Shown: one piece after another, positions 3,986-16,664 of the stretch
Layout: every line of letters begins with the position of its first letter
How positions within the stretch are numbered: the first letter of the stretch is position 1
Origin: a virus
DNA: 44,122 nt
Virus record (IMG/VR): IMGVR_UViG_3300050821_003815
Coordinates: 1 to 44,122 of that record
Strand: one strand, 5' to 3'
Translations under genes and position numbers: made by a program
The notes under the pieces: model-generated
Seen by the model: the letters and a program-made list of their open reading frames with translations, nothing else
What the model was told of the DNA's origin: nothing
The model's database searches: none

Positions 3986-4035
3986 CGCCAAAGGGGATAA
4001 CTAAGCATGACCATTGACGAGTTGTATTGTCGGAG

Positions 4036-13854: not shown

Positions 13855-14460
13855 ATGAGCACACCACGTAAAGAGTACAGGATTTTCAAGACTACCGTCC
13901 GTGCAAAGGCGGACAGTCCGCAGATTGAGGGATACGCTGCCGTTTTCAACGTCTCGGCAGACTTAGGCTTTCTCACAGAGCGGATTGCTCCGGGTGCTTT
14001 TACCCGTGCCATTGCCGACAAGCAAGACGTGCGGTGTCTCTTTAACCATGACCCTAACAACGTCCTCGGACGCACCAAGAGCGGGACGCTCACCCTCAGC
14101 GAGGATAATACCGGCTTGAGTTATGTGTGCGATATGCCAGATACACAGATTGGTAGAGACGTACACACGATGATTACTCGCGGTGACGTTGACCAGTGTT
14201 CGTTCGGATTCATTGTCACGAAGGAGCAAGTCTCATACAAGGACGACGGGACTTGTTTACGTCAGATACAGGATTGCGACTTGTTTGACGTATCTCCCGT
14301 GACCTACCCGGCGTATGAGTCAACGAGCGTTGAGGCACGGAGCAACGAGGCGGCGTTAAAGACCTACCAGCTCGACGTGATATCCGCCGACAAACAGTCC
14401 TTAGACCATGAGATTGCCAAGCGGCTAACCTATCTCGCGGCGTTAAGCCTATCCAGGTAA
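13855..14460 (+). CDS. Prohead maturation protease (S78 family)
   Basis: This 201-aa serine protease of the HK97 gp4 type has the catalytic His65 in CLFNHDPNNVLGR and Ser116 in QCSFGF. The N-terminal IEGYAAVFN and PGAFTRAI and the later FDVSPVTYPAYEST are all hallmark segments. It should cut the capsid delta domain during head maturation. GAGGAG lies eight bases before the ATG. In most relatives the capsid gene follows within a few dozen bases; here 914 bases with a promoter, a hairpin-rich segment and an antisense gene intervene. Confidence 0.95.
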   Translation: MSTPRKEYRIFKTTVRAKADSPQIEGYAAVFNVSADLGFLTERIAPGAFTRAIADKQDVRCLFNHDPNNVLGRTKSGTLTLSEDNTGLSYVCDMPDTQIGRDVHTMITRGDVDQCSFGFIVTKEQVSYKDDGTCLRQIQDCDLFDVSPVTYPAYESTSVEARSNEAALKTYQLDVISADKQSLDHEIAKRLTYLAALSLSR

Positions 14461-14463
14461 CGC

Positions 14464-14491
14464 TTGGGATAGACGACTTATAGTGTATAAT
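14464..14491 (+). promoter_or_regulatory. Sigma-70-type promoter after the protease gene
   Basis: TTGGGA (14464-14469) and a perfect TATAAT (14486-14491) are separated by 16 bp, beginning three bases after the protease stop codon. It would start a transcript near 14498 that runs through the hairpin-rich segment towards the capsid gene. Confidence 0.55.
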
Positions 14492-14833
14492 AAGAGGATA
14501 ATTGAAGCATAGGTCAGACTGTTAGAGCGGACCTTCGTAGCACGCCTCGTTGGGGTCACAATAAGCGAGGCTTTAGAGTAACCGCCGACCGACAAACAAC
14601 GGGCTACCCCATAGATACAAGGTCAACTCCAGACGAAATCCGGGTAATGCTGCCGTAGTCGAACGGCTCACACACGCTGTATCCCGGTCCTACGTGGTGC
14701 CTCGAAAGAGGTTCAATAAGCCTGGAAACGGCTCGCCTACCATTCACTGCTTCCGTAGGTTTCCTTGGTCTTATCTCCTGCTCTCCTGCATGGAATTAGA
14801 TAACACCACGAGGGAAGGCGTGTGTCTAATTCC
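14492..14833 (+). ncRNA. Hairpin-rich gene-free segment; candidate structured RNA
   Basis: Downstream of a consensus -10 there is no supportable gene, but there is a run of consecutive stem-loops: GCCTCG/CGAGGC (14544-14549/14566-14571); CCGGG/CCCGG (14640-14644/14683-14687) enclosing GCCG/CGGC; CCTC-GAAA-GAGG with a GNRA tetraloop (14700-14711); AGCC/GGCT (14719-14733); CCTAC/GTAGG (about 14735-14759); and GGAATTAGA/TCTAATTCC (14792-14800/14825-14833) with an inner ACAC/GTGT. Such a train of hairpins suggests a folded RNA, either a free noncoding RNA or a long 5' leader for the capsid gene. No known RNA family was recognised. Confidence 0.35.
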
Positions 14834-14852
14834 AGCCTTCCAATGCCTATCA

Positions 14853-15134
14853 TCAAATGGCGGCTGTATAACAGTCTATATGACTTCCATAGCAGTTCGT
14901 TTTGTGCCCCCAACAGCATTCATATGCATATTCTCCGTTTGGAGCAAATCGGATTAGCTTCTCGCCCTCGTGGCTTCCCTTTATGGCAACGGTTGCGCGT
15001 GCAGTGAAAGACGTTTGATCTCCAGTTGTCTGATACGTTGCGTTTGGGTTGGCACGCACATGGGTGTAGGCTCCCGCGAAGGTCAGCCGATTCCGTACTG
15101 CTCCAGCGTGTCGTCCGATATTTGCTTTTGTCAT
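14853..15134 (-). CDS. Hypothetical protein, 93 aa, antisense between protease and capsid
   Basis: ATG 15134 is preceded on its strand by AAGGGGG (spacing about 4-5), a strong ribosome site, and a TTGCCT-17-TATAGG promoter-like pair lies about 70 bases upstream. The product has a basic N-terminal half (MTKANIGRHAGAVRNRL), a Thr/Ala-rich middle and a cysteine cluster near the end (ECCWGHKTNCYGSHIDC), and no signal peptide. I do not recognise the family. It looks like another moron, opposed to the capsid operon. The hairpin at 14792-14833 lies just past its stop. Confidence 0.55.
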   Translation of the reverse strand: MTKANIGRHAGAVRNRLTFAGAYTHVRANPNATYQTTGDQTSFTARATVAIKGSHEGEKLIRFAPNGEYAYECCWGHKTNCYGSHIDCYTAAI

Positions 15135-15374
15135 TCAACCCCCTTTTTTCCTTTCCGCGCGGTCCCACGCCGCTTCCATTTCTTCTAGCAGAACTCCCTA
15201 TACTAACCAGTTTGTAGAAAGGCAAGAAGCCTTCCGATAGTTCGTAGCTATTCGCGACGTTGCCCGGATGCGGGCTGGCTCAGGAAGCAAGACGCCTCGT
15301 GAATAGAACGTGAGTGACTCCGCGAGGTGCGGTTGTCAGCCCCGTAACAAATCCCTTTTAGCAACGGAGCACTT
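15135..15374 (+). other. Capsid leader region
   Basis: No gene is seen. Short hairpins are present: AAGGC/GCCTT (15220-15234 area), GCCCG-GATG-CGGGC (about 15263-15276) and CCTCG/CGAGG further down. They continue the folded character of the upstream segment and would form the immediate 5' leader of the capsid mRNA. Confidence 0.3.
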
Positions 15375-16664
15375 ATGTCTCAGAAGTCCATTGAACTACG
15401 CCAACAGCGTAACACCCTCGTGCAAGAGATGCACGACTTAACCGAAAAGTCCTCGTTTCCAGCGGAGGCTAAAGCTCGCTGGGAAGAGTTGGACAAGCAA
15501 CAGAAGGACCTGGAAGTCCGTGTTACTGCAATCGAAGCAAGCGAGAAGCTCGTTGCCGACATGAGCAAGACGGACCATGTTGAGCGCACCCAGCCTAACG
15601 CGGACCCGGCGGCTCCCGCCTCACGCGAGGACCGTGCTGCAACCTTGACCGAAAAGCGCGGCTCCAAGGAATACAACGCCGCATTCGAGCAGCACCTACG
15701 CACCGGCAGAGCGAACACGTTCACCGAAGAGTTGCGTACGTACTCCGGTCTTTCCGAGTACACCTCGGGTGTTGATGGCGAGTATCTAGTCCCTATCGGC
15801 TTTCAGAAGGAGCTAGAAATCAAGCTCAAGGCTTACGGCGGGATGCGTAATGTTTGCCGCACTATCACAACCTCGACTGGTAACACCTTGAACTGGCCGA
15901 CTGCCGATGACACTACCAACAGCGGCGAGTGGTTGGCTGAGGCTGGCACTATCGCGCAGACAAATCCTGCATTCGGTCAAGTGCAATTCACTAGCAACGT
16001 ATGCGACTCCAAGCAAGTCTTGGTTTCCGTCCAGTTGCTACAAGACTCCGCCTTTGACGTGCAGTCCATGCTCGTTGACATGTTCGGTATCCGAATTGGT
16101 CGCACAATTAACAGTGGTTACACCCTCGGCAATGGCTCGGGCAAGCCAGTAGGCATTGTTCCAAGCGTTGAGGCTTACAACTCCGGGTCTCAGGTCGTGA
16201 CGGCGGTTGGCGCTAACGCCACTTACAACCCCGGCTCCACGGACCTCAACTCCGTCAACCTGATTACAGACCTTGACGGTCTTATCACGGCAGTTGACCC
16301 AGCGTACCGTCCAGGCGCTAAGTTCATGGCGCACCAAGCAACGTTTGACGCATTCCGTAAGCAGAAGGACGGCTTTGGGCGTCCGCTGTGGAACGTAAGC
16401 GTAAGCGTAGGCGAGCCTGACACGATTTACGGCTACGGCTATCAGTGGAATCAGGACATGGAACTAATGGGAGCGAGCAACTACTCGGTCCTGTTCGGTA
16501 ACTTTGAGCACTACGTTATCCGTGACGTTGGTCCCGCTACGTTCTTCGTGTTCCAAGAGACGTACATGGCGAGTTTGCAGCGTGGGTACATTAGCTTCCT
16601 TCGTACTGACGGACAGCTATTGCAGCCCGCCGCGTTCTCCGTACTACAACACCCTGCGTCCTAA
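15375..16664 (+). CDS. Major capsid protein (HK97 fold)
   Basis: This 429-aa shell protein starts with a helical delta (scaffold) domain of about 105 residues (ELRQQRNTLVQEMHDLTEKS and further heptads), which the protease removes. Mature sequence probably begins after the charged linker before FEQHLRTG. HK97-fold landmarks follow: GGYLVP-like GEYLVPIGF, the E-loop region, the spine helix, MAHQATFDAFRKQKDG, GRPLW, and the C-terminal VIRDVGPATFFVFQETY. Ribosome site CGGAG precedes ATG 15375. It is the most abundant virion protein and its long, structured leader may regulate it. Confidence 0.96.
   Translation: MSQKSIELRQQRNTLVQEMHDLTEKSSFPAEAKARWEELDKQQKDLEVRVTAIEASEKLVADMSKTDHVERTQPNADPAAPASREDRAATLTEKRGSKEYNAAFEQHLRTGRANTFTEELRTYSGLSEYTSGVDGEYLVPIGFQKELEIKLKAYGGMRNVCRTITTSTGNTLNWPTADDTTNSGEWLAEAGTIAQTNPAFGQVQFTSNVCDSKQVLVSVQLLQDSAFDVQSMLVDMFGIRIGRTINSGYTLGNGSGKPVGIVPSVEAYNSGSQVVTAVGANATYNPGSTDLNSVNLITDLDGLITAVDPAYRPGAKFMAHQATFDAFRKQKDGFGRPLWNVSVSVGEPDTIYGYGYQWNQDMELMGASNYSVLFGNFEHYVIRDVGPATFFVFQETYMASLQRGYISFLRTDGQLLQPAAFSVLQHPAS

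Follow-up and report, generated by a model that had tools for sequence, protein, structure and literature searches.

In tailed phages no structural protein is more abundant than the capsid protein, and its ratio to the other head proteins is usually attributed to gene order and ribosome-binding strength. RNA phages of the MS2 type offer another logic: their operator, a single short hairpin on the replicase gene, lets the coat protein control translation. Two other phage RNAs are relevant here: the Mu-gpT-DE motif, a conserved RNA adjoining the major head gene, downstream of gpT in Mu-like phages, and the pRNA of phi29, which is located at the genome end, contains a three-way junction and has loops that pair between molecules. 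Ribosomal-protein leader RNAs are, as a matter of general knowledge, structured 5' leaders placed before genes of abundant assembly proteins, with a strand able to occlude the Shine-Dalgarno sequence. Autoregulation by ribosomal proteins is stated in PMC6097659. PMC9004378 describes phage Melnitz as carrying a glutamine riboswitch, a known riboswitch type, on its tmRNA gene. No description of a structured RNA leader of a tailed-phage capsid gene was found in the literature searched, which lies largely outside subscription journals.

The locus considered here has such a leader. The window (that is, the whole stretch of DNA analyzed, a 44122-base IMG/VR virus record) includes a head module of terminase, portal, protease and HK97-type capsid genes. 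The prohead protease (Peptidase_S78; 13855-14460, + strand; Pfam PF04586, E 1.5e-52; PHROG head maturation protease) forms the upstream border of the region of interest, and the major capsid protein (HK97-type; 15375-16664, + strand; Pfam PF05065, E 1.9e-48) lies beyond it. (At the left end of the window, a tRNA-Ser (cga) at 7-96 adjoins an integrase gene and is a likely attachment site.) The leader was first noticed as the last ~130 nt before the capsid ATG, which are common to relatives in which the space between protease and capsid is empty or differently filled.

Its core, delimited by a covariance model and by covariation, occupies 15247-15345 on the + strand, ends 29 nt before the capsid ATG, and consists of a three-way junction (P1-P3) and a long hairpin, P4. 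The closing helix P1 is made of arms at 15248-15261 and 15291-15306, with a two-base bulge at 15295-15296; P2 (15262-15275) is a hairpin with the loop GATG; P3 (15278-15288) is a hairpin with GGA in its loop; P4 (15308-15345) is an irregular hairpin whose strands are able to pair with the Shine-Dalgarno sequence. Double changes are seen in all 14 pairs of P1, all 5 of P2 and all 13 of P4. Preceding the core is a 5' block (15187-15246, + strand, read from the sequence) with a pyrimidine/ACTA-like stretch and a small hairpin, P0 (15219-15233). The capsid Shine-Dalgarno sequence, GGAG, follows at 15366-15369 (+ strand); in the isolated leader it is predicted to pair with CTCC at 15318-15321, and its mean unpaired probability is 0.05. 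Every reading frame of the window core is interrupted by stops; because it has no stop-free frame, protein-level conservation does not explain the leader.

How does this RNA compare with the described ones? In the stretches scanned, Rfam 15 has no match to it above gathering score or at E up to 1-5: the scan of the whole window yields only the tRNA at 7-93, a scan of 14300-15420 yields nothing at E up to 5, and scans at the leaders of ten relatives yield no match (there were two sub-threshold matches, both away from the leader). With the ribosomal-protein leaders it shares position and layout; it differs in serving a phage capsid gene, with the capsid protein as a putative ligand, and in having no Rfam match in the scanned stretches. 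With the Melnitz riboswitch (PMC9004378) it shares being a structured RNA in phage DNA with proposed control of a phage gene; that riboswitch is of a known type and sits on a tmRNA gene, while the present leader, without an Rfam 15 match in the scans made, sits on a capsid gene. The Mu-gpT-DE motif lies on the other side of its head gene; here the RNA is upstream of an HK97-type capsid gene and has no Rfam match in the scanned stretches. The MS2-type operator possibly shares its logic, a coat protein controlling translation through an RNA hairpin, but here the RNA is 99 nt long and precedes the capsid gene of a DNA phage. The three-way junction is shared with the pRNA of phi29; identity with pRNA was rejected, the P2 loop GATG and the P3 loop AGGA not being complementary and the Rfam scans containing no pRNA match.

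That the leader is a well-supported conserved structured RNA is shown by computation, from structure, covariation and position together. In A6, a structure-free MAFFT alignment of the five closest leaders, 10 of 36 pairs have double changes, a number reached by none of 500 shuffles, and 92% of cells are paired, as against 32-46% in slid versions of the alignment. In A10, the model-fitted alignment of 22 leaders (the window and relatives, including one of L005 and L007, whose leaders are identical), mean pairwise identity is 47%, and double changes occur in every one of the 36 pairs. Cells of this kind number 239, where shuffles average 78, and none of 500 shuffles reaches the alignment on any of five measures; these figures are to be read with the reservation that model-fitted alignments lean towards the structure of the model and that the rows are related. 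(A technical note: A3 and A4 were used for choosing the structure; A1 and A5 were kept out of the counts, since distant leaders align poorly when no model is fitted.) Because of this leaning, each leader was also folded alone: P1 reaches a mean pair probability of 0.7 or more in 18 of the 22, and the mean folding z is -1.78 for leaders vs. -0.48 for 44 neighboring controls (p 1e-4). The window leader's own stability is unexceptional (z -1.37).

Covariance models find the leader in sequences on which they were not trained. R1, trained on the five closest leaders, matches L026 (E 3.6e-6) and L013 (E 1.9e-4) with default filters; with filters off, it also matches L009 (7.6e-8), L010 (6.5e-4), L017 (0.01), L011 (0.022), L014 (0.23) and L042 (0.65). 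The last four are individually weak, yet all lie at the expected place and on the expected strand. R2, built from 13 sequences, was applied to capsid relatives fetched later, all of them unseen: L080, L092, L062 and L093 match at 7.7e-8 to 6.3e-6, and L082, L084, L083, L079 and L081 more weakly, at E 0.019 or better. Run together, the 22 representatives give exactly one match each. In the window, with filters off, the leader model matches 15247-15345 at E 2.5e-17; a second copy was considered and rejected, the next best match (at 4010) having an E of 0.41.

Capsid relatives are encoded by 46 contigs (counted by hand), of which 44 were searched with the models. The two left out are those of L006, which upstream of the capsid is identical by eye to L005, and of L037, whose leader is identical by eye to that of L028; L033, whose capsid is cut at the contig end, is among those searched. 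The leader is matched in 22 of the 44, in addition to the window, all from uncultured phages; L005 and L007, which share one leader, are both counted. It is present in every searched relative with a capsid identity of 66% or more (L002, L004, L005, L007, L008, L011 and L017). In all 22 representatives the core is on the sense strand, 14-47 nt before the capsid ATG with one exception: in L084 the distance is 139 nt, and an extra segment of more than 100 nt with a very long hairpin (2348-2485) lies between core and ATG; L085 is similar. In L013 (4787-4882) the core appears, unlike that of the window, to overlap the 3' end of the upstream open frame. The other 22 contigs, among them L025, L027-L030, L032, L070/L071 and L078, have no match; L012 (a partial match only, E 0.09) and L085 (E 0.19) are counted with these.

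Of 20 records chosen for searching in full, 14 contain a single match each, located upstream of the capsid gene and on the + strand; the earlier match in L093 was not recovered in this way. Another 14 whole records, from capsid relatives without a match or from named phages, yield no leader, an empty result that alone shows little. Six named phages with capsids ~30% identical (chosen from 487 and 275 matching records) have no leader match, and there would be no room for one, since their protease-capsid gaps measure only 12-95 nt. Two contig scans using the capsid found no capsid relatives in prokaryote genomes. Does the core motif precede other genes? This was rejected: a pattern scan returned 19 stretches, six of them known capsid contigs, and of the 13 searched with R2 only L046 scored (E 0.48; its whole record has no leader match at E up to 0.001); all four stretches returned by a second pattern scan are on contigs already known for their capsid relatives. 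Computation shows the leader to be restricted, among what was searched, to one capsid lineage. L027, L028, L031 and L037 have a capsid leader of another type, nearly identical among the four; it contains hairpins as well as a strand that could pair with the ribosome-binding region. The leader models do not match leaders of the L027/L028 type where these were searched, and such leaders may form a second class. Upstream of the capsid gene in L029, L030 and L027, a GCGCAAC(C/G)TGCGC-like hairpin recurs; R2 matches none of these leaders.

What might the leader do? The best-supported role is control, in cis, of capsid translation: the capsid mRNA would begin with a 5' leader encoded by 15247-15345, in which a three-way junction is followed by hairpin P4, and this leader would act as a translational control element. 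The control, its ligand and the separate transcription of the capsid gene are what we infer. In 4 of 22 sequences an intrinsic terminator precedes P1 by 43-73 nt, compared with 1.4% of background stretches, which suggests a separate capsid transcript. Within the 95 nt upstream, 8 of the 22 have a TTTYC..ACT block (background 2.6%); the window is not one of these 8. A leader that stands at the predicted start of a separate transcript, past a terminator in those four relatives, would also suit a put-like antitermination RNA, modifying RNA polymerase as the capsid transcript begins. We consider this very improbable: the known put RNAs, those of HK022, are two-hairpin elements of early operons, the stretches scanned contain no Rfam match, and complementarity to the Shine-Dalgarno sequence would be left unexplained.

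Paired positions of the leader vary, and its loops are kept: one column of the P3 loop is G in 22 of 22 sequences and one column of the P4 loop is G in 21 of 22. In the proposed scheme of cis control, the P1-P3 domain with its sequence-conserved loops would be the recognition part, and the most likely ligand would be a protein: the capsid protein of the phage itself, giving feedback, or an RNA-binding protein of the host. The capsid protein is the simplest guess and a CsrA-like protein the alternative. In its explicit form, the latter has a host CsrA/RsmA-type protein binding the GGA of the P3 loop and that of the Shine-Dalgarno sequence, and repressing capsid translation until late in infection. 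GGA is indeed present in 17 of 22 P3 loops, and the CsrA/RsmA consensus is ANGGA in a hairpin loop together with GGA at the Shine-Dalgarno sequence; however, the P3 loops mostly read CAGGA or CCGGA rather than ANGGA, five of the 22 are without GGA, and Shine-Dalgarno sequences contain GGA in any case. We think a CsrA/RsmA-type repressor quite improbable.

The output of cis control would lie in P4 and the sequence following it, which would decide whether the capsid Shine-Dalgarno sequence is free; P4 and Shine-Dalgarno pairing would be mutually exclusive, which is the layout of a translational switch. The Shine-Dalgarno sequence is predicted to be mostly paired in the 18 leaders examined, and the 3' strand of P4 holds a complement of at least 4 nt to the Shine-Dalgarno region in 11 of 22 sequences, where 4.1 are expected; these 11 derive from a few clades, and the complement is missing in the other 11, the window included. 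(In the window, the predicted partner, CTCC at 15318-15321, is in the 5' strand of P4 rather than the 3' strand.) Because half the family is without the 3'-strand complement, a Shine-Dalgarno switch is held at somewhat less than an even chance. That the complement is not universal fits a different function, that of a ligand-free 5' stabilizer or ribosome standby platform, which would make the capsid mRNA long-lived and highly translated, its Shine-Dalgarno-like GGA loop in P3 recruiting the 30S subunit. The abundance of capsid protein (general knowledge), the GGA in 17 of 22 P3 loops and the AAG-like purines carried by the P4 loop speak in the same sense; against it, a three-way junction with conserved loops is not obviously needed if there is no ligand, and the Shine-Dalgarno sequence is predicted to be mostly paired in the 18 examined leaders. 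We regard the stabilizer or standby function as unlikely. Cis control with a ligand can be taken further: the capsid protein would sense its own unassembled pool, binding the P1-P3 junction, flipping P4 and closing the Shine-Dalgarno sequence, with the leader constituting a new family confined to a single uncultured lineage of HK97-type phages. So specific a proposal is speculative and unlikely; in its bolder form, the leader RNA would in addition enter the prohead and serve there as an assembly or packaging cofactor.

The leader is separated from the protease gene by DNA of a different character. L002 is the closest relative found, with 73% identity in the protease and 79% in the capsid. Its protease-capsid gap measures 157 nt and that of the window 914 nt, and the ~750 extra bases are assigned to a lineage-specific insert at 14461-15186 (right border approximate) that is missing from L002. 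The original prediction had remarked that protease and capsid genes are normally adjacent and that something is inserted between them, and both points hold: gaps are as short in L002 and the six named phages as already given. The insert (~14461-15186) has no similarity below E 0.1 among 97 fetched loci, and none in phage records. It encodes, on the minus strand, a 93-aa ORF (14853-15134) of no known family, whose ATG is preceded by a strong, G-rich, Shine-Dalgarno-like run; Pfam, PHROGs, PADLOC, tblastn against phages and viral contigs yield neither family nor relative. The region upstream of this ORF extends into the 5' end of the capsid leader, so that both transcripts would diverge from nearly one place. 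A group I or II intron or a HEARO-type insert was rejected, there being no Rfam match at E up to 5 in 14300-15420.

The corresponding slot holds other things in relatives: an Endonuclease_7-type HNH gene in L017 (1018-1434, adjoining the leader), which is a possible mobile driver of the variable slot; a DNA methylase fragment in L029; a 106-aa minus-strand ORF in L028 that is absent in L027 (the gaps are 638 and 152 nt, respectively, and the two leaders, of the other type, are near-identical); and, between protease and leader in L079, L081, L082, L084 and L092, related + strand ORFs of 163-190 aa, which by position could be head decoration proteins (the two tested, of L082 and L092, match no Pfam family). 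Relatives hold differing cargo, and the slot is therefore a variable cargo slot, of which 14464-14833 is part of one cargo. Taken jointly, a ~750 bp lineage-specific, moron-like cargo with its minus-strand 93-aa gene, to which 14464-14833 belongs, and a conserved leader acting in cis on capsid translation make up the account of this locus that we think probable.

It was the segment 14464-14833, between protease (13855-14460) and capsid (15375-16664), that had been singled out as a structured, gene-free RNA: a capsid leader, a free ncRNA or an antisense partner of the 93-aa gene, with its start at ~14498. A capsid leader RNA does exist in the protease-capsid gap; the prediction placed it ~400 nt too far upstream, on evidence that fails, and the leader covariance model matches 15247-15345 instead. 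The segment is, as described, devoid of a supportable gene (the listed ORFs are short, and the one tested, 14694-14957, has no Pfam family match). The proposed promoter is also there in the letters: TTGGGA-16-TATAAT (14464-14491, + strand), a sigma-70-like match of 10/12 beginning 3 bases past the protease stop at 14460, and the only + strand site in the 44 kb window with at least 10/12. It is a predicted element whose occurrence is close to chance expectation: when the window is shuffled 100 times with dinucleotides preserved, sites with a perfect TATAAT, a -35 box of at least 4/6 and a spacing of 16-18 occur 0.75 times per window on average, and at least once in 53 of the 100, for which reason the match alone has little weight.

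The "at least six consecutive stems" fare no better: z is 0.06 for 14464-14850 (57 of 100 shuffles are equally stable) and -0.23 for 14464-14833, and the stems of 14464-14833 are what random sequence of equal composition yields. The GNRA hairpin is present (5-bp stem, loop at 14704), and ~0.28 such hairpins are expected per 370 nt. Only the long stem at 14792-14833 (GGAATTAGA / TCTAATTCC), likewise present as predicted, stands out: it has an unusual stability on either strand (z -3.38 for 14784-14840), corresponds to a 10-bp inverted repeat (TGGAATTAGA / TCTAATTCCA, with a 24-base spacer, 14791-14834), and lies ~20 nt past the end of the minus-strand 93-aa gene. It is not an intrinsic terminator by the evidence of either strand, neither of which has a T-run, or of the terminator scan, whose output does not contain it; it may serve the 93-aa gene as a hairpin for processing or stability, or be a DNA palindrome. 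Neither blastn nor tblastx against the 97 fetched loci finds a homologue of 14464-14833 below E 0.1, phage records have no match to it, and 14300-15420 contains no repeat of at least 12 nt by the criteria of the tool. A conserved RNA at 14464-14833 was therefore rejected: there is no excess structure overall, no homologue was found, and there is no covariation evidence. Could the segment be a functional RNA all the same? The perfect TATAAT and the stable stem favor it; a z near 0 for the segment as a whole, comparable promoters in 53 of 100 shuffled windows, and the missing homologues in phage records and fetched loci leave it little chance of being right.

One can draw a general caution from this locus: single-sequence folding can miss a real structured RNA, since the window leader's z is ordinary and relatives reveal the leader at once. 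A covarying RNA fixed before the capsid gene in 22 of 44 relatives' contigs makes direct control at the RNA level testable, and a leader that senses capsid protein would, if true, mean that a tailed DNA phage couples its capsid synthesis to assembly by feedback. The shape that the leader keeps, while its letters change, in some twenty other uncultured phages suggests that these phages may have a built-in control of the production of their coat protein.
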